From positions 1-56,639 of the forward strand of contig JAAYXB010000091.1 of the NCBI GenBank assembly GCA_012516125.1: DNA of 56,639 nucleotides, read 5' to 3'. The notes under the pieces are model-generated. The model saw nothing but the letters and a program-made list of their open reading frames with translations. It was not told where the DNA came from and made no database searches. The translations under genes were made by a program, and so were the position numbers. Of this stretch, positions 45,473 to 54,521 are shown in pieces; position 1 is the first letter of the stretch; every line of letters begins with the position of its first letter. The stretch comes from Bacillota bacterium (GTDB taxonomy: Bacteria; Bacillota; SHA-98; UBA4971).

Positions 45473-45511
45473 AATACAGGTGCGAGAATGGTTGGTGGGA
45501 GGCGAACAATC

Positions 45512-46126
45512 ATGAGGGCGCCACATGGAGGGTCTGCCACCTGGCAGGTGCTGCCTGTTTCGCATCTTGCAAGGCATCCCGCGATCCCGGCGCTCAGGCA
45601 GGCGGGCGAAGTGGACGAGGCTGCAAGCTGCGGCGCAGCCCTGGTGTTTTTTCTCACGGGCACCATCTATGAGCTGCGCGACGTGGTCGCGAGGGCTGCA
45701 GCCGCAGGGCAGCAGGTGTTTTGCCATGTGGACCTGTTGCATGGAATCGGCAAGGACCCCGTGGGCATGAGGTGGCTCGCCAGGGAGATAGGGGTCAAAG
45801 GGATCCTGACGACAAGGAGTTCCCTCATAAAGGCTGCAAAGGACGAAGGCCTCGTGGCCGTGCAGCGCCTCTTCGTGCTGGACTCGGAGTCCCTGAAGAC
45901 GGGGCTTTCTGTGGTCGCCTCGTCGCGGCCTGACGCCGTGGAGATTCTCCCTGCGCTCGTGCTCCCCAGCATTATCCACCGGCTGCCGGTCGATGAGATA
46001 TCGCCTTTCATAGCCGGTGGGCTCGTCGAAACCGTACCTGAGCTAGAAGCCGTGCTCGCCACGGGCGCGCTGGGCGTCTCGACCAGCAAGAAGGAGTTGT
46101 GGGGCTACACCAAAGAAGGCACGTGA
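45512..46126 (+). CDS. glpP: GlpP-like glycerol-3-phosphate-responsive antiterminator
   Basis: A 204-residue TIM-barrel-like protein of the GlpP family (PF04309): VFFLTGTIYELRDVV, HVDLLHGIGKDPVG, GILTTRSSLIKAAK, DAVEILPALVLPSII and PFIAGGLVETVPELE, with a final GVSTSKKELWG. Known members bind leader mRNA with glycerol-3-phosphate and prevent early termination of glpD-type genes. ATG 45512 has GGGAGG nine bases upstream; ATG 45488 is weaker. A strong intrinsic terminator lies in the leader between this gene and the glycerol-3-phosphate dehydrogenase-like gene, the expected target. Confidence 0.9.
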   Translation: MRAPHGGSATWQVLPVSHLARHPAIPALRQAGEVDEAASCGAALVFFLTGTIYELRDVVARAAAAGQQVFCHVDLLHGIGKDPVGMRWLAREIGVKGILTTRSSLIKAAKDEGLVAVQRLFVLDSESLKTGLSVVASSRPDAVEILPALVLPSIIHRLPVDEISPFIAGGLVETVPELEAVLATGALGVSTSKKELWGYTKEGT

Positions 46127-46223
46127 GGCTGCAGGAGTCTGCGGATTTCTGGTGAAGAGAAATATAGGAAGCGAGAATCTATCATAGTCGCGGCATTGGC
46201 TTCTAACGTTACGGCGCGGAGAT

Positions 46224-46278
46224 AAGGAGAAGGCCGAACGGAAAGCGTTGTTTTCCGTTTTGGCGCTTCTCCTTTTAT
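46224..46278 (+). terminator. Leader terminator, likely GlpP-controlled
   Basis: AAGGAGAAGGCC (46224-46235) pairs with GGC (46262-46264) and CTTCTCCTT (46266-46274). An inner perfect stem AACGGAAA/TTTCCGTT (46237-46244, 46252-46259) extends it, and TTTTA follows. It lies in the leader between glpP and the dehydrogenase-like gene, so read-through would depend on antitermination. Confidence 0.85.
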
Positions 46279-46709
46279 GTTTGGTACGTTTGGGAGCCAT
46301 GTGCGAGTGACGCGTGGAAGTTCCGCCGTGCCTGAGTCTGTCGCGTGGCATAATTCCGTGGGTCACGCAAACCGGAAGGCCATCAGCCCTAGACTCACGC
46401 TTGCAGAGTGACGCGGGATGCGTGGATTGCTCCCGGGCTCAGGTGCGGTATGGCAAGCACCGGGCCGCCGGCTGCGGCGGCCCGGCGGGGCAGGTGCGGG
46501 CTGAGCGCATACTCATACTGGATGAGCAGGCCGTTACACGGGAAAAGCGAACCGGGCGGAGTGGACGGGAGATCATGAGAAAGTCCTATCTGCCAGGCCC
46601 GTTGCTCGTTCCTTCTTGCTCAACGTTCATTGCAACGGGGCTTGTTGCAGGCTGGACTTTTCTTTATGACACGACGGCACGCAAGACACGCATCACGGGG
46701 GGATGTGGG
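46279..46709. other. Leader and intergenic region, 431 bases
   Basis: Follows the terminator and precedes the TTG start at 46710. It contains a GGGCCGCC/GGCGGCCC hairpin at 46462-46483. The dehydrogenase frame stays open back to 46314, but the encoded residues have no family resemblance, so I treat this as untranslated. Confidence 0.45.
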
Positions 46710-48407
46710 TTGCAGGGTACACGGTCCACGCAGTCAACGACCGTGAAAGCTGACGTAGCAATCATCGGAGCGGGGGTGGTGGGCGCCGCCATCGCAAGGG
46801 AACTCGCGCGATATGACCTGAGAGTGGTCCTCATCGAGCGCGAGGTGGAGGCGGCGTTCGGCACCAGCAAAGCCAATAGCGGTGTTGTGCACGCCGGCTT
46901 CCACTCTACCCCCGGAACCCTGAAAGCCTCGCTATGCGTTCACGGGAATGCCATGTTCGACGACATCGCGGCGGAGCTCTCCGTGCCTTTCAGGCGCAAT
47001 GGGTGCCTCATGGTCGCGATGTCTCGCGACGAGGTCGGCGTGCTCCGCGAGCATTTCGAGCAGGGGCGGCGTAACGGCGTGCCCGGGCTTCGCCTTCTCG
47101 ACGCGGATGAGGCCCGCAAGTTGGAGCCGGGGCTTGCGCCAGAGGTTGTAGCGGCGCTATATGCCCCGACGGGCGGGGTCGTGTGCCCGTACCAGCTCAC
47201 GTTCGCTCTGGTCGAGAACGCCATCGCCAACGGCGTCACGTTCATGGCCGGCTCGCCGGTCACTTCGATTCACCTCCGGGACGGCCGGGTCATGGCGGTC
47301 GAGACGCCGGAAGCAATCATAGAGACCGCGTGGGTGGTGAATGCCGCGGGGCTCTTCGCGGACCGGATCGGGGCCATGGCGGGAGACGAGTCCTTCGAGA
47401 TCCGGCCGAGGAAGGGCGAGGAGTACCTGCTGGACAAGCGCGTCGGGAGCCTGGTCCGGTCCACGGTATTCCCTGTGCCGACCCCCGTGTCCAAAGGTAT
47501 CCTCGTGATCCCGACGGTGGATGGAAACATCATGGTCGGTCCCACCGCCGAGGACACCAGGGATCGCCTGGACCTTACGACAACGCGGGCGGGGTTCGAG
47601 GCGGTGTTCGCCGCTGCGCGGCGCATGGTGCCGTCGGTATCGCCACGCGATATCATAGCGTCTTTCGCCGGCCTGCGCGCTGCGTGCTCCGAGGACGACT
47701 TCATCATAAGGCCGTCCCGGGTGGCGAGGGGCTTGGTCCACGTGGCAGGGATAGAGTCGCCCGGCCTCACTGCGGCACCTGCCATCGCACGGATGGTCGC
47801 GGAGATCTTGCGGGAAGAAGGGCTCGAGATGCGGGCGCGGCGCGCGTTCAACCCTGTTCGCCCTGCTCCGGTGCGGTTCGCGCACCTCTCCCGGGCGCAA
47901 CAGGCACGTCTTGTGGCATCCGAACCGGCGTTCGGGCGCATCGTATGCAGGTGCGAGACGGTTACGGAGGCCGAGGTGGTGGACGCGATCCGCAGGGGCG
48001 CGAGGACGGTGGACGGGGTCAAGCTCCGGACGCGCGCCGGCATGGGGAGGTGTCAGGGCGGTTTCTGTATGCCCAGGGTCATGAGGATCCTCTCGCGCGA
48101 GCTGGGAATCCCCGTCAAGCAGGTCACGAAGCGAGGCCCAGGCTCGGTGATCGCTCCATACCCGGCCAAGGCGTTGCTACGCGCGGGCCGGGCTGAGGTT
48201 GGTATTGAGGCTGAGGCTGAAGCTGAAGCTGAAGCTGAGGCTTGTAGCGCAAACGGGATTGGCGTCAGGGCCGCCATCAAGGCTGGGACGGGGAGTCCGG
48301 GCGGAGCGGGGCCCGGGGCCGACAGCAAGGTCGCACGCGGAACCCGAGTCCGGCGTGCAGATGGAATCGAGACCGGGTTCCAGGCCGCGCCGACAACAGG
48401 GAGGTAG
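46710..48407 (+). CDS. GlpA-like FAD-dependent glycerol-3-phosphate dehydrogenase with BFD-type [2Fe-2S] domain
   Basis: A 565-residue flavoprotein. It begins with a dinucleotide-binding site (ADVAIIGAGVVGAAIARELARY), followed by GTSKANSGVVHAGFH and a DAO-type catalytic core. Near the end is a BFD-like iron-sulfur domain (CRCETVTEAEV...RCQGGFC). The final about 75 residues are a low-complexity tail including a Glu-Ala repeat. TTG 46710 has GGGGGGA six bases upstream; ATG 46576 is possible but would add a non-conserved N-terminus. Together with the next two genes it forms the anaerobic-type GlpA / oxidoreductase / DUF1667 trio that oxidises glycerol-3-phosphate. Confidence 0.85.
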   Translation: MQGTRSTQSTTVKADVAIIGAGVVGAAIARELARYDLRVVLIEREVEAAFGTSKANSGVVHAGFHSTPGTLKASLCVHGNAMFDDIAAELSVPFRRNGCLMVAMSRDEVGVLREHFEQGRRNGVPGLRLLDADEARKLEPGLAPEVVAALYAPTGGVVCPYQLTFALVENAIANGVTFMAGSPVTSIHLRDGRVMAVETPEAIIETAWVVNAAGLFADRIGAMAGDESFEIRPRKGEEYLLDKRVGSLVRSTVFPVPTPVSKGILVIPTVDGNIMVGPTAEDTRDRLDLTTTRAGFEAVFAAARRMVPSVSPRDIIASFAGLRAACSEDDFIIRPSRVARGLVHVAGIESPGLTAAPAIARMVAEILREEGLEMRARRAFNPVRPAPVRFAHLSRAQQARLVASEPAFGRIVCRCETVTEAEVVDAIRRGARTVDGVKLRTRAGMGRCQGGFCMPRVMRILSRELGIPVKQVTKRGPGSVIAPYPAKALLRAGRAEVGIEAEAEAEAEAEACSANGIGVRAAIKAGTGSPGGAGPGADSKVARGTRVRRADGIETGFQAAPTTGR

Positions 48408-48412
48408 GTTCG

Positions 48413-49762
48413 TTGGAATCAGCAGGAAAGCATGTGCGCGCTGACGTGGTGGTGATCGGCGGGGGCCCGGCAGGCCTCGCCGCGGCCGTGGCCGCGAAGC
48501 AGGCAGGGGCGGGACGGGTGCTCATCATCGAGCGCGATGTGCGCCTGGGCGGCATACTCCCGCAGTGCATACACACGGGATTCGGGGTGAGGTGGTTCGG
48601 CGAAGAACTCACCGGCCCCGAGTACGCCGGGCGGTTCGTCGAGCAGGCGAAATCCGCAGGCGTCGAGTTCATGCTCGAAACCATGGTCCTCGAGGTTACA
48701 CCCGACCTCCGAGTGCTGGCAGTGTCGCCCCGTGACGGCCTGGTCGTGGTCGAGTGTGGCGCCATCGTGCTCGCCATGGGGTGCCGGGAACGTCCCCGCG
48801 GGGCGCTCGCTATCCCCGGCACGAGGCCGGCGGGGATCTTCACGGCCGGCACGGCCCAGCGCCTCGTGAACATCGAGGGCGTCTTGCCAGGGCGGCGGGC
48901 GGTCATCCTGGGGTCGGGCGACGTGGGCCTCATCATGGCGCGGAGGCTCACCCTCGAAGGGGTGAAGGTCGAGGCGGTTGTGGAGATCATGACTTACCCG
49001 GGTGGCCTTGCTCGGAACATACAGCAGTGCCTTCGCGACTTCGACATCCCGCTGTACCTCGGGCACACCGTCTCCAGGATCCACGGCCGCGACAGGCTGG
49101 AGGGAGTGAGCGTCGCCCCTGTTGATGATGCGTGGGTGCCTATCACTGAGAAGGAGTGGTTCATCCCGTGCGATACGCTGCTCCTCTCGGTCGGCCTCAT
49201 TCCTGAAAACGAGCTTTCGGCGGCGTGTGGCATCGAGCTCGATCCTGCCACCGGGGGCCCCATCGTCACCGACGAGATGGAGACGAGCGTCCCCGGCATC
49301 TTCGCCTGCGGTAACGTGGTGCACGTTCATGACCTTGTGGACCACGTTACCGAGGACGGCATGGTGGCAGGCGCTGCGGCCGCAGCGAGGGCGGCAGGCC
49401 GCGCGGGTGCAGGTGCGGGCACGGGTGCGGTTGCAGGTGCAGGCGCAGGCGCAGGGGACGAGTCCCGCCGCACGCTAGGCGAGATTCGCCCGGGGCTGAA
49501 CGTGCGATACGTGGTCCCTCAGCGCTTCGTGCAGGGCGGCGAGCGCAGCGGGGGCGGCAGGATACTCACCATATCTCTAAGGCCCAGCGAGCCTGCGGAA
49601 AACGTGGTCTTGGAGGTGTCGGCTGCCGGGAAGGTGCTGCGGCGCCAGAGGAAGGAGAAGGTCCGACCCAGCGAGATGCTGCAGGTGAACGTGGATAGGC
49701 TTGCGCTTCCGTCCGAGAGCGGTGTCGTGGTTACGGTATCCATAACAGAACGGAAGGTGTGA
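48413..49762 (+). CDS. FAD/NAD(P)-dependent oxidoreductase of the glycerol-3-phosphate group
   Basis: A 449-residue flavoprotein with two nucleotide-binding folds: DVVVIGGGPAGLAAA for FAD and AVILGSGDVGLIMARR for NAD(P). LPQCIHTGFG and the FAD-closing VPGIFACGNVVHVHDLVD are typical of the COG0446 partner found beside GlpA-like proteins. An Ala/Gly tract (about 325-350) is inserted before a C-terminal beta domain. TTG 48413 follows GGGAGGTAG, six bases after the previous stop. Probably passes electrons from the dehydrogenase. Confidence 0.87.
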   Translation: MESAGKHVRADVVVIGGGPAGLAAAVAAKQAGAGRVLIIERDVRLGGILPQCIHTGFGVRWFGEELTGPEYAGRFVEQAKSAGVEFMLETMVLEVTPDLRVLAVSPRDGLVVVECGAIVLAMGCRERPRGALAIPGTRPAGIFTAGTAQRLVNIEGVLPGRRAVILGSGDVGLIMARRLTLEGVKVEAVVEIMTYPGGLARNIQQCLRDFDIPLYLGHTVSRIHGRDRLEGVSVAPVDDAWVPITEKEWFIPCDTLLLSVGLIPENELSAACGIELDPATGGPIVTDEMETSVPGIFACGNVVHVHDLVDHVTEDGMVAGAAAAARAAGRAGAGAGTGAVAGAGAGAGDESRRTLGEIRPGLNVRYVVPQRFVQGGERSGGGRILTISLRPSEPAENVVLEVSAAGKVLRRQRKEKVRPSEMLQVNVDRLALPSESGVVVTVSITERKV

Positions 49763-49768
49763 TTCCAC

Positions 49769-50128
49769 GTGAGCAAGGGCTCCAGTGAGTTCACGGTGAC
49801 CTGTATTGCCTGCCCCGTAGGGTGTGAGGTCATGGTTTCAGGCGCCGACGAGGTAAGGGGCAACAAGTGCGACCGGGGCCACGAATACGCGCTCCTCGAG
49901 CGCCACGACCCAAGACGCGTCTTGACGTCCACTGTGCGCACAACGTGTCCTGATCATCCGCTCCTCCCTGTGAAGACGGACCGGCCGATTCCGAAGCGCT
50001 TCCTTCTTGAAGCCACGAAACTTCTGGCTGAGGAGTGCATCAGCCCGCCCGTGAAAGCCGGCGACGTGGTGGTGCGCGACATCCTGGGGACTGGCGCTTC
50101 TGTGGTGGCCACCGACGACCTCCTATAA
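49769..50128 (+). CDS. DUF1667 Cys-rich protein
   Basis: A 119-residue protein of DUF1667 (PF07892). The N-terminus has CIACPVGC, then GNKCDRGHEYA, giving a CxxCxxxC plus Cys pattern suited to an iron-sulfur or metal site. VLTSTVRT and VPVKT-like segments follow. It is regularly third in GlpA-type glycerol-3-phosphate operons, probably as an electron-transfer subunit. GTG 49769 starts seven bases after the oxidoreductase stop. Its 3' end overlaps the convergent small gene by six bases. Confidence 0.88.
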   Translation: MSKGSSEFTVTCIACPVGCEVMVSGADEVRGNKCDRGHEYALLERHDPRRVLTSTVRTTCPDHPLLPVKTDRPIPKRFLLEATKLLAEECISPPVKAGDVVVRDILGTGASVVATDDLL

Positions 50129-50785: not shown

Positions 50786-50814
50786 GGTTGCAAACCATAC
50801 AGGGGGCGGCGGCA

Positions 50815-52035
50815 ATGGTCAGCGCAATGATCGAACTATCAGGTCACATCATTGACTCCCGGATCCTCCCCAGGGTGATGGACGCCATCATGGACCTGGG
50901 CGGAGACTTCCACATCGAGGAGATCAGGGTCGGTAGAACCAAGCTGGACACGAGCTACGCGAGGATCGAGATCAAGGCACCGACGCCGCAGGTGCTGGAA
51001 GCCATCGTCGAAGAGGTACAGGGCCTCGGTGCGACCGTTGTCGACCAGGAGGAAGTGACTCTGGAAGCGGCCGAGCAGGACGGCGTCTTCCCCGAGGGTT
51101 TCTACTCCACTACGAACCTGGACACATTCGTGCGAGTGGCAGGGTCGTGGATCCCTGTGCGCGACATCGAGATGGACTGCGGCATCGTGGTTGACAGGTC
51201 ATGCACGCCTCCGACGGCGCGATGCGTGCCGATCCACCGCATCAAAAAAGACGACCTGGTGGTGACCGGACGAGCGGGGGTCAGGGTCGTTCCGCTGGAG
51301 AGGCCGAGGCACCGCGAGGTGTTCAGCTTCATGGGAAGCCCGGTGTCGAGCGAGAGGCCCAAAGCCCTCGTCGTCGAGGAGATCGCCCGGACCATGAGGG
51401 ACGTCAGGGCGCGCGGCAAGAAGATCCTTGCTGTGGCCGGCCCGGCCGTCATCCACACGGGGGCAGGCAAGCACCTCTGCGCGCTCATCGAGGCGGGGTA
51501 TGTGAACGTGTTGTTCGCGGGCAACGCCGTGGCGGTCCACGATGTCGAGTCGGCGCTGTACGGCACGTCTCTGGGCGTTTACCTTGAGAATGGCGCGGCG
51601 GCTTCTGAGGGCCACGCGCACCACCTGCGCGCCATCAACACCATACGCAGGCTGGGCGGGCTTCGCGCCGCTGTGGAGGCGGGGGTGCTCAAGAAGGGCG
51701 TCATGCATGCTTGCATCACGCACGGTGTGGACTATGTGCTTGCGGGCTCCATCCGCGACGACGGCCCTCTCCCTGACGTCATCACCGACACGGTGAAGGC
51801 CCAGGACGAGATGCGCCTGAAGATCAAGGACGTCGAGCTTGCACTCATGTTGGCCACGATGCTCCATTCCATTGCCACCGGGAATCTGCTTCCGAGCCGG
51901 GTCAGGACCGTGTGCGTGGACATCAATCCTGCCACCGTAACCAAGCTGGCAGACAGGGGAAGCTTGCAGGCCGTCGGCATCGTGAGCGACGTGGAGTGGT
52001 TCCTCAAAGAGCTGGTTGGACGGCTTGTGGGCTGA
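50815..52035 (+). CDS. TIGR00300 / LOR-SDH-domain enzyme (ornithine cyclodeaminase-like)
   Basis: A 406-residue protein with the LOR/SDH conserved region at the N-terminus (SGHIIDSRILPRVMDAIMDLGGDFHIEEI...GRTKLDTSYARI). The C-terminal part contains VAGPAVIHTGAGKHLCALI, LFAGNAVAVHDVESALYGTSLG and IRDDGPLPDVITD. It matches TIGR00300; archaeal and cyanobacterial members (the ArgZ/AgrE C-terminal part) have been linked to ornithine cyclodeamination. The start is ATG 50815 after AGGGGGCGG; ATG 50827 is also possible. It lies just upstream of a lysine riboswitch, but its own promoter is separate. Confidence 0.85.
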   Translation: MVSAMIELSGHIIDSRILPRVMDAIMDLGGDFHIEEIRVGRTKLDTSYARIEIKAPTPQVLEAIVEEVQGLGATVVDQEEVTLEAAEQDGVFPEGFYSTTNLDTFVRVAGSWIPVRDIEMDCGIVVDRSCTPPTARCVPIHRIKKDDLVVTGRAGVRVVPLERPRHREVFSFMGSPVSSERPKALVVEEIARTMRDVRARGKKILAVAGPAVIHTGAGKHLCALIEAGYVNVLFAGNAVAVHDVESALYGTSLGVYLENGAAASEGHAHHLRAINTIRRLGGLRAAVEAGVLKKGVMHACITHGVDYVLAGSIRDDGPLPDVITDTVKAQDEMRLKIKDVELALMLATMLHSIATGNLLPSRVRTVCVDINPATVTKLADRGSLQAVGIVSDVEWFLKELVGRLVG

Positions 52036-52501
52036 AGGCATCCTGGCTGAGCGTCGTCTGCTGGGAGCACGTGTTTCGGGCAACGTGGGAGGCGTTGGAC
52101 GTCCACGTTCGCGGTCACGCCCACTTTTGCGCTCGCAGCCATACCCGGCCATGTCCGCGCCCGTGTTCGCCCTCGCGTCCGTGCTTACGCCTGTATTCAT
52201 ATCTGCTACTCATATCTGCGTCCACGGCCACAGGCATGGCTGTGCCAGCAGCCGCGGCCGCGACTGGGCGCACGTCTATGTTCACGTGCTCGCGCGAGAT
52301 CGGCTCTGTTCGCGTGCGCATGTGCATGAACATACACTCTGCGTTAACATACACCTCGTGTTCTGCCCGCGGCCGCAGTTGAATGCAGCTGTCGACCTCG
52401 TGCGGACCGCCGTGCGCGGAACTGCGACGATAGGACCTCCCGGCCCAAGGAGGTCTACGTTCCTCGGCTGCCATCTGCTGCAATCCGCGGTTGACACGCG
52501 G
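52036..52501. other. Intergenic region between the TIGR00300 gene and the pckA promoter
   Basis: About 465 bases without a convincing gene. A minus-strand frame (52115-52483) and a plus-strand frame (52016-52717) are open, but they lack ribosome sites and recognisable products, and the plus one runs into the riboswitch. Confidence 0.5.
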
Positions 52502-52530
52502 TTGACAGGCGAGGAAGCATCCAATATACT
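52502..52530 (+). promoter_or_regulatory. Strong sigma-70 promoter of the riboswitch-pckA transcript
   Basis: A perfect TTGACA (52502-52507), a 17-base spacer and TATACT (52525-52530). The transcript would begin near 52537, about 55 bases before the riboswitch aptamer. Confidence 0.85.
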
Positions 52531-52591
52531 GAGAAAAAACACATGGTCGGCAAGCCAGAGAATGGAGGGGTCACCTCATCTCCCCACAGGA

Positions 52592-52777
52592 GGTGAGGTA
52601 GAGGCGCGGCGCGCCATGAGTAGGCATTCGGAGAAGGGCATCTCTGAAGGATGCCGAAAGGGGCCGCCGCCGAAGTCCCGCGCCCGGCCAGGGGCACGGG
52701 GCTGGGCCTGCACCTAAGAGGTGCAGGACTGTCACCGGACGCCTTTCCCTTGAGCGCCCGGTGGAGCGCTATCTCAC
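52592..52777 (+). ncRNA. Lysine riboswitch (L-box) aptamer
   Basis: The core matches the lysine riboswitch: AGGTAGAGGCGCG at the start, GAGTAGG, GGAGAAGGGCATCT, CCGAAAGGGGCCGC, CGCCGAAG, GGGCTGGGC, CTGTCACCGG and GGAGCGCTATCTCAC at the end. P1 pairs 52593-52601 with 52769-52777 (one G-U). P4 is CCTGCACC...GGTGCAGG and P5 is ACCGG...CCGGT. An upstream segment TCACCTC (52571-52577) can instead pair with GAGGTGA (52590-52596), overlapping P1. GAAG-N3-CTTC with six Ts (52784-52800) follows as a possible terminator tail. The next gene is pckA. Confidence 0.94.
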
Positions 52778-52841
52778 AGGGGGGAAGGTGCTTCTTTTTT
52801 GCCAAAATCGGTTGAGTCCCGAGGAGGAGGGGCGCTACAAA

Positions 52842-54521
52842 GTGGCATACGAGGCAGTAGCACATGGTGCGTGGCAGCCAGAGAAGGACGAGAGACGCAG
52901 AGCAGACTCTGGGACACCGAGCGACTTTCTTGCAGGAGATGTGGTAGCGCTCGCGGGAGTGCACGCGGCCCACTACAACCTAACCGTCCCCAGGCTCATT
53001 GAGGTTGCCGTCGCGCGCGGAGAGGGTGTGCTCACGAGCATGGGCGCGTTCAACGTGGTGGGCGGCAGGTACACGGGCCGATCCCCGGACGACAGATTCA
53101 TCGTGGACGAGCCCGGCATACGGGAGGAGATATGGTGGGGCCCGGTGAACAGGCCATTTTCACAGGCTGCCTTCGACAGGCTCTACTATCGCGTCGCAAG
53201 GTACTTGAAGGATAGGGAGATCTTCGTGTTTGACGGGTTTGCCGGCGCCGACCCTGAGTACCGGCTGCCAATCCGCGTGGTCACAGAGCTTGCCTGGCAA
53301 AACGCTTTCGCACAGCAGGTATTTCTCCATGCGACCCCAGATGAGCTTCGCACGCACGAGCCCGAGTTCACGGTGATCTCTGCTCCGGGGTTCAAGGCCT
53401 CACCCGAGCGGGACGGGACGAGGTCTGAAGCGTTCATTCTCATAAGTTTTGCGCGCAGGCTCATCCTCATCGGCGGGACCTACTATGCCGGTGAGATAAA
53501 GAAGTCGGTCTTCAGCGTGATGAACTTCCTCCTACCCAGCCGCGGTGTCTTTCCAATGCACTGCTCCGCCAACATCGGCCCAACAGGCGATGTCGCGCTC
53601 TTCTTCGGCCTCTCCGGCACAGGTAAGACAACGCTTTCTGCGGATCCGGCCCGTCGCCTTATCGGCGACGACGAACACGGCTGGTCCGCGAGGGGCGTTT
53701 TCAACATCGAGGGCGGATGCTATGCCAAATGCATCAGGCTTTCGCCGGAGAGCGAGCCACTCATCTATCAGGCCATCCGCTTTGGGACGGTTCTCGAGAA
53801 TGTGGTTGTGGACCCGGATAGCCGAGAGCCGGACTTCGACAGCGACGCGCTAACCGAGAACACCAGGGCGGGCTTTCCCGTAAGCTTCATCCCAGGCGCG
53901 GTGACATGCGGCCTTGGTGGCCATCCCAGCGTGATCATCTTCCTTACGGCCGATGCGTTCGGAGTGCTGCCCCCGGTCGCCAGGCTGACGAAAGAGCAAG
54001 CTATGTACCATTTCCTGTCGGGCTACACGAGCAAGCTGGCAGGGACAGAGCGTGCCGTCACCACCCCCCAGGCCACGTTCTCGACGTGCTTCGCCGCCCC
54101 GTTCCTGCCGCGCCCGCCGGTGGTGTATTCGCGGCTATTGGGGCAGAAGATCGAGGCCCACGATGTGCCTGTGTATCTTGTCAACACTGGCTGGATCGGA
54201 GGGCCTTACGGTGTCGGCAGCCGGATCAGGATCCGCGACACGCGAGCGATCGTGTCCGCCGTGCTTAGCGGCAAACTCAACGACATTCCTGCCCTTCGGG
54301 ACCCGGTTTTCGGTTTTATGGTCCCCGAGGCATGTCCGGGGGTGCCGTCCGAGATCATGAAGCCCCGCGCCACCTGGGCTGACCCGCGCGCCTACGACGA
54401 GCAGGCCGCGGCTCTCGCCCGAAGGTTCGTCGAGAACTTCGCGCGCTTCGATGACGTACCCGACGCCGTCAGGGCCGCTGGGCCCAAGCTCCCGCAGGCA
54501 GGCGCGGCTATCGGGGGCTAA
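52842..54521 (+). CDS. pckA: ATP-dependent phosphoenolpyruvate carboxykinase
   Basis: A 559-residue PEP carboxykinase (ATP). It interconverts oxaloacetate and PEP with CO2 in the cytoplasm. Visible motifs are [30 protein letters not shown], the kinase P-loop [11 protein letters not shown], the metal-site [16 protein letters not shown], and the adenine-site region [15 protein letters not shown] 52842 is chosen because GGAGGGG (52826-52832) lies nine bases upstream and the start must follow the lysine riboswitch; the frame remains open further back, through the aptamer's end. The riboswitch suggests lysine-dependent expression. A hairpin overlaps the stop codon. Confidence 0.93.

Follow-up and report, generated by a model that had tools for sequence, protein, structure and literature searches.

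Genomic context of the pckA locus

The window analysed here, the whole stretch of 56,639 nucleotides, belongs to a Bacillota genome (G000) assembled in 98 contigs, and carries on its forward strand a promoter, an RNA leader and pckA, the gene for PEP carboxykinase (Table 1). The frame open from 52761 is that of an ATP-type PEP carboxykinase, matching TIGR00224 above its cut-off. This profile is entered at its position 15 by residue 64 of the frame, and a purine block similar to the ribosome site AGGAGGAGGGG precedes the matching GTG in relatives of the same genus; from these two observations we infer that pckA starts at the GTG at 52842.

Table 1 Features of the pckA leader and gene in the window.
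Feature	Position	Strand	Basis
Sigma-70-type promoter of the leader, TTGACA-17-TATACT	52502..52530	+	11/12 consensus bases; hexamers common to the other five pckA leaders
Purine run upstream of strand A, able to pair with CUUCUU leading into the U tract	52564..52570	+	Folds with P1 enforced; purine-rich in 4/4 genus leaders
Strand A, CACCUCAUCUCCCC, partner of the P1 5′ side or of D	52572..52585	+	Folds; A:D shuffle test, 15/1000
Strand B, P1 5′ side and upstream neighbours	52589..52601	+	RF00168 alignment; 10 contiguous A:B pairs
Lysine riboswitch aptamer (L-box, RF00168)	52591..52779	+	124.2 bits, full length
Strand C, 3′ end of aptamer core and P1 3′ side; can form a hairpin with D before U6	52763..52777	+	Local folds; C:D shuffle test, 35/1000
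Strand D, GGGGGAAGGUGCUUC, 3′ arm of the proposed terminator	52780..52794	+	Folds; shuffle test
U6 tract of the proposed terminator	52795..52800	+	Sequence
Ribosome site, AGGAGGAGGGG, purine-rich	52822..52832	+	Sequence; genus relatives alike
pckA, ATP-type PEP carboxykinase, 559 aa, inferred GTG start	52842..54521	+	TIGR00224, 724.1 bits against a cut-off of 590.05; 11-residue stretch in translation

The gene ahead of the leader (50788-52035) matches TIGR00300, named ornithine cyclodeaminase, at 559.8 bits against a cut-off of 410.8. An earlier, sequence-only reading of this DNA had pointed to it as a further amino-acid enzyme, and its identity stands, although the name refers to ornithine and not to lysine. 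We treat it as a neighbour of the system and not as a part, because of that name and because it stays in two genomes of the genus (G002 and G005) that have neither pckA nor an L-box. Further upstream, the window holds a glycerol-type cluster (45488-50128) with a G3P-responsive antiterminator (PF04309), an FAD oxidoreductase with a BFD domain, an NAD(P)-type oxidoreductase and a DUF1667 protein.

A full-length L-box directly before pckA

The sequence-only reading had proposed a full L-box aptamer with its own strong promoter immediately ahead of pckA, and each of these elements was recovered. An Rfam scan of the whole window gave RF00168 as the sole match at gathering threshold, with a covariance score far over the gathering score of 30 (E 7.6e-33) and an alignment spanning model positions 1-182 of 182. 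Read by eye, this alignment matches the upper-case consensus stretches of the five-helix junction core. The P2-P3 loop-loop contact is a known trait of the lysine riboswitch class. In the pckA L-boxes of G001 (L034) and G003 (L035), AUGAAUA replaces AUGAGUA in the P2 internal loop, the latter being the form of both the consensus and the window.

The promoter compares with a mean of 0.2 in shuffles of 52000-53000. The next gene after the aptamer is pckA, and an overlooked lysine gene between 52777 and 52842 can be discounted, as those 65 bases are too short to hold one. The scan therefore confirms a genuine L-box in front of pckA, apparently placed to control it. The aptamer itself is ordinary; what is new is the target gene and the layout of the platform.

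Distribution within and beyond the class

The arrangement recurs within the class, of which 17 genomes were sampled. RF00168 occurs in seven of them, with 11 L-boxes in total, and pckA in eight; in six of these eight, spread over two families, an L-box lies immediately 5′ of pckA. Four belong to the genus of the window (G000, G001, G003 and G004) and two to another family, f3 (G014 and G016), while the two other pckA-bearing genomes, G013 and G015, gave no L-box match. The six pckA copies score between 112.3 and 124.2 bits against RF00168. Examination of the genes downstream of RF00168 in relatives, which the sequence-only reading had named as a check, finds pckA recurring as the first gene after 6 of the 11 class L-boxes, with glutamate synthase after four and an amino-acid ABC transporter after one (G006; by eye). 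The gene targeted in the window is thus pckA and not one of lysine biosynthesis or transport. The biosynthetic gene lysA, which every one of the 17 genomes has, is not close to any of the 11 L-boxes. G000 has two full-length lysA matches (G000:C22:11735-12994 and G000:C80:6905-8167), which may reflect the 4.15% contamination of the assembly.

Within the genus, the leader and pckA are present or absent together. The order cyclodeaminase, L-box, pckA, sppA is intact in G001, G003 and G004, whereas in G002 and G005 the cyclodeaminase adjoins sppA with no pckA match between them, and no L-box was found anywhere in either genome.

A second L-box of the genus fronts a glutamate synthase (glt) operon in G000, G001, G003 and G004, as read from open reading frames, with Pfam applied to the G001 copy alone. 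The copy in G000 (L032, G000:C20:26133-26315), like L033, L036 and L038, precedes a split operon with amidotransferase, Fer4/Glu_synthase and GXGXG parts, which like pckA is an unusual target. This glutamate synthase and pckA co-occur in the identical 8 of the 17 class genomes.

Outside the class, the arrangement was not encountered. In a phylum sample of 299 genomes, pckA exceeds its cut-off in 107, six of them within the class, and none of the 101 others has an L-box directly before pckA, in a comparison of positions made by eye and an L-box search whose stricter filters lose weak matches. Direct Rfam scans of the region ahead of pckA, to a length of about 1 kb at most, in 29 outside-class genomes whose L-boxes might be missing from that comparison, and in G013 and G015, gave no match in any of these 31 regions. 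RF00168 was likewise absent from all 80 named pckA loci, of which five with less than 1 kb of upstream sequence (L057, L075, L103, L104 and L127) are weaker negatives. At many Bacillota loci (L054-L133), a SAM riboswitch (RF00162) lies upstream of pckA on the opposite strand.

Alternative pairings in the leader

Four strands of the leader have competing partners, B and D each being open to pairing with either A or C. The pairing of TCACCTC with GAGGTGA around P1 that had been suggested earlier is real and longer than claimed, running between ACCUCAUCUCC (52573-52583) and GGAGGUGAGGU (52589-52599). A stand-alone GAAG/CTTC hairpin before the T6 run, also suggested, was rejected: it has only 4 bp, a scan of 52000-53000 for simple terminators found none, and longer helices make better use of its letters. 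A third suggestion, pairing of AGCGCCC (52753-52759) with GGGCGCT (52830-52836) beside the ribosome site, holds by letter; the first of these strands is, however, the 3′ side of P5, and by eye the complementarity is only partial in G001 and G003, so that the pairing appears weakly conserved.

With P1 enforced in folding, A:D forms outside P1 in all ten pckA and glt leaders and ends at or reaches into the U tract. When pairing between the 5′ and 3′ strands is penalised, A:B forms and D pairs with C in seven of the eight genus leaders; under the same penalty D of the window leader is not free but pairs with the P5 arm (52737-52750), and in the two f3 leaders D pairs with aptamer arms, stopping 3-4 bases before U6. 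The C:D hairpin does appear when the window is folded in shorter or longer segments, and a fold of 321 nt prefers A:B together with C:D.

The energy difference between the state with P1 and A:D and the alternative spans +0.3 to -11.6 kcal/mol when no ligand term is included (-1.3 for the window). Partition functions place seven of the ten leaders in this state already without ligand, and a P1 bonus of 5 kcal/mol shifts only those of the window (G000), G004 and G016 into it. As no more than three of ten respond, a simple equilibrium switch is disfavoured in most leaders, and because seven occupy the P1 and A:D state beforehand, an OFF polarity is one that we infer. Real leaders fold during synthesis; the results given here are those of equilibrium models.

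Chance pairing was assessed with 1000 dinucleotide shuffles of D, counting those that reach or beat the real pairing. For A:D the counts are 15, 8, 20 and 25 in the genus pckA leaders, 0 and 35 in the f3 pckA leaders, 17 in an nhaC-type leader from G054, and 70, 156, 77 and 52 in the glt leaders, which are weak singly. For C:D they are 35, 25, 14 and 41 in the genus pckA leaders, 825 and 512 in f3, 317, 638, 610 and 612 for glt, and 401 for G054. The four genus leaders come from close relatives, and their results are non-independent. The base of the A:D helix differs on both strands, being purine-rich facing CUUC in the genus, as opposed to UGAC or CAAC facing GUUA in f3; such a two-sided change is what one would expect if pairing is maintained, although one position in G016 is unpaired.

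A strand like A, able to form 7 or more contiguous pairs with the P1 5′ side, accompanies 31 of the 38 L-box loci at hand in the phylum, a non-random sample, against a shuffle mean of 12.6. Among L-boxes of neither pckA nor glt the count is 21 of 28 (shuffle mean 10.0, maximum 17 in 100 runs). The G054 L-box (L024, G054:C21), assigned by eye to an nhaC-type transporter, has the same A/B/D layout, with CCTCATC upstream and GATGAGG directly before ATTTTTT.

Enzymes around oxaloacetate and lysine

PEP carboxykinase can be glycolytic, gluconeogenic, anaplerotic or cataplerotic, as outlined in PMC8100219. Our search found PEP carboxylase in 0 of the 17 class genomes and a PYC/OADA-type subunit in eight, including five of the six in the genus of the window and neither of the f3 genomes with an L-box before pckA. 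In f3, PEP carboxykinase is therefore the only one of the three searched enzyme types. Seven of the 17 genomes lack all three enzymes, which means that oxaloacetate must also be made by other routes.

The idea of lysine feedback on oxaloacetate supply, put forward in the sequence-only reading, gains indirect support from the L-box on glutamate synthase, the co-occurrence of pckA with that enzyme and the absence of the other two enzyme types from the f3 genomes with an L-box before pckA; the seven genomes without any of the three enzymes speak against leaning on this last point. These observations point to a supply role of PEP carboxykinase, with lysine as feedback signal. Because an L-box lies directly before pckA here and in several relatives, lysine probably controls oxaloacetate supply in these bacteria through a direct RNA switch.

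Against such a supply role, a lysine fermentation cluster in G000:C84 (L190:1097-9436) encodes kdd, kamA, kamE, kce and a CoA-transferase subunit, and is preceded by neither of the two L-boxes of the genome. Within the class, kce occurs in 11 of the 17 genomes, all of family f1.

A proposed mechanism and its alternatives

Building on the aptamer, promoter, gene identity, conserved arrangement and A:D complementarity, all of which the sequence shows, we propose, with about an even chance of being right, that the leader attenuates pckA transcription as a lysine riboswitch, most likely an OFF switch with a nested A:D terminator. Without lysine, A would fold back onto the 5′ side of P1 and be unavailable to D, and polymerase would read into pckA. 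With lysine, which presumably binds the aptamer, P1 would close and release A to pair with D just outside P1, and the A:D helix running into U6 would act as a terminator with the aptamer as its loop. Lysine would thereby lower the level of PEP carboxykinase, an enzyme that, if its flux runs in this direction, would supply the oxaloacetate and aspartate from which lysine and its family are made. OFF is favoured because A:D is common to all pckA and glt leaders, C:D is above chance only in the pckA leaders of the genus, and the A:D base has changed on both strands. It also draws on the f3 leaders, where other partners leave D short of U6, on the frequency of A-like strands among L-boxes of the phylum, and on the physiology, with glutamate synthase as second target and PEP carboxylase in none of the 17 genomes. 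Against it, C:D of the genus also beats shuffles, the 321-nt fold of the window prefers A:B with C:D, equilibrium models switch in three of ten leaders only, D of the window leader turns to the P5 arm when the 5′ and 3′ strands make no contact, A:D is weak in each glt leader taken singly, and the lysine fermentation cluster would suit induction by lysine too.

The main rival is an ON switch in the genus, which we consider unlikely. Here, without lysine, 52763-52775 and 52782-52794 would form a canonical hairpin that stands before U6 and halts transcription; closure of P1 with lysine would break this hairpin and induce pckA in cells growing on lysine or other amino acids. The hairpin (GGAGCGCU-A-UCUC / GGGA-A-GGUGCUUC) abuts U6 directly, its pairing beats shuffles in the four genus pckA leaders (14 to 41 of 1000), and kdd, kamA, kamE and kce are at hand in the genome; moreover, the lysine riboswitches of the catabolic genes kal and kce are described as positively regulated in the survey of PMC5584792. 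The same pairing is nonetheless at chance in the f3 pckA, glt and nhaC-type leaders, for which reason a pure ON switch through a hairpin of D with the 3′ side of P1 was demoted to its present rank. A:D with P1 enforced also leads into the U tract in ten of ten leaders, the f3 genomes with an L-box before pckA have no kce, and C:D carries little weight in the partition function of the window leader (0.7 pairs without ligand). The hairpin keeps the ON reading alive for that leader.

Control might instead act mainly on translation or mRNA stability, or the pairing of D with the P5 arm might outweigh both A:D and C:D, the U tract being incidental. We judge this improbable: the window's fold in which the 5′ and 3′ strands make no contact does pair D with 52737-52750, ligand has scant effect in seven of ten equilibrium models and the ribosome-site strands match by letter, yet a U tract lies closely 3′ of D in the pckA and glt leaders examined, and G001 and G003 retain just part of the ribosome-site pairing. 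That the aptamer is a relic, or has a lost or changed ligand and leaves pckA in effect outside lysine control, is highly improbable, since the altered P2 loop of the G001 and G003 copies stands against high scores in all six pckA copies, intact conserved stretches in the window, and promoter hexamers and platform strands that have been kept.

Relation to known lysine riboswitches

Lysine riboswitches were surveyed across 2785 genomes in PMC5584792, which places them on biosynthesis, transport and catabolic genes; a term search of its main text finds neither 'pck' nor 'PEP carboxykinase'. The usual logic of the class is given as OFF in PMC11477304, and the platform logic was checked against passages of PMC2258182. 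A literature search at title and abstract level found no report of an L-box on pckA, though an earlier one may exist.

The pckA leader shares with the lysine riboswitches of biosynthesis and transport genes its aptamer family, its leader position and the strand exchange around P1, but differs in its target, pckA (with glutamate synthase in the genus), and in a proposed terminator that would enclose the aptamer by means of an upstream strand. Like the kal and kce L-boxes, it stands outside biosynthesis, and the genome of the window also has a lysine fermentation cluster; here, however, that cluster is without an L-box, the controlled gene is not a lysine enzyme and OFF is favoured. The nhaC-type L-box of G054 has the same layout, and differs in its transporter target and a shorter A:D of 7 contiguous pairs. 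A further parallel is citrate synthase placed under an engineered lysine riboswitch in strains that produce lysine, touched on in PMC10949472. In both, the level of lysine would set flux around oxaloacetate, although that system is man-made and the present one would be natural and act on pckA.

We tentatively suggest, as a possibility that we hold to be somewhat short of probable, that lysine riboswitches in this lineage have shifted from the genes of lysine biosynthesis to those that supply carbon and nitrogen skeletons: PEP carboxykinase for oxaloacetate and, in a single genus, glutamate synthase for glutamate. Lysine would then be a sign of amino-acid sufficiency, and the aptamer reading it would form the loop of the terminator itself. 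As a platform, the nested A:D terminator would be simple enough to test with few mutants. If the proposal is true, RNA alone would tie a branch point of central carbon metabolism to an amino acid that is an end product, and the lysine riboswitch regulon would extend past the synthesis, transport and breakdown of lysine, providing a natural counterpart to engineered lysine-riboswitch control of flux. It would, moreover, favour oxaloacetate formation as the direction of PEP carboxykinase in this lineage.
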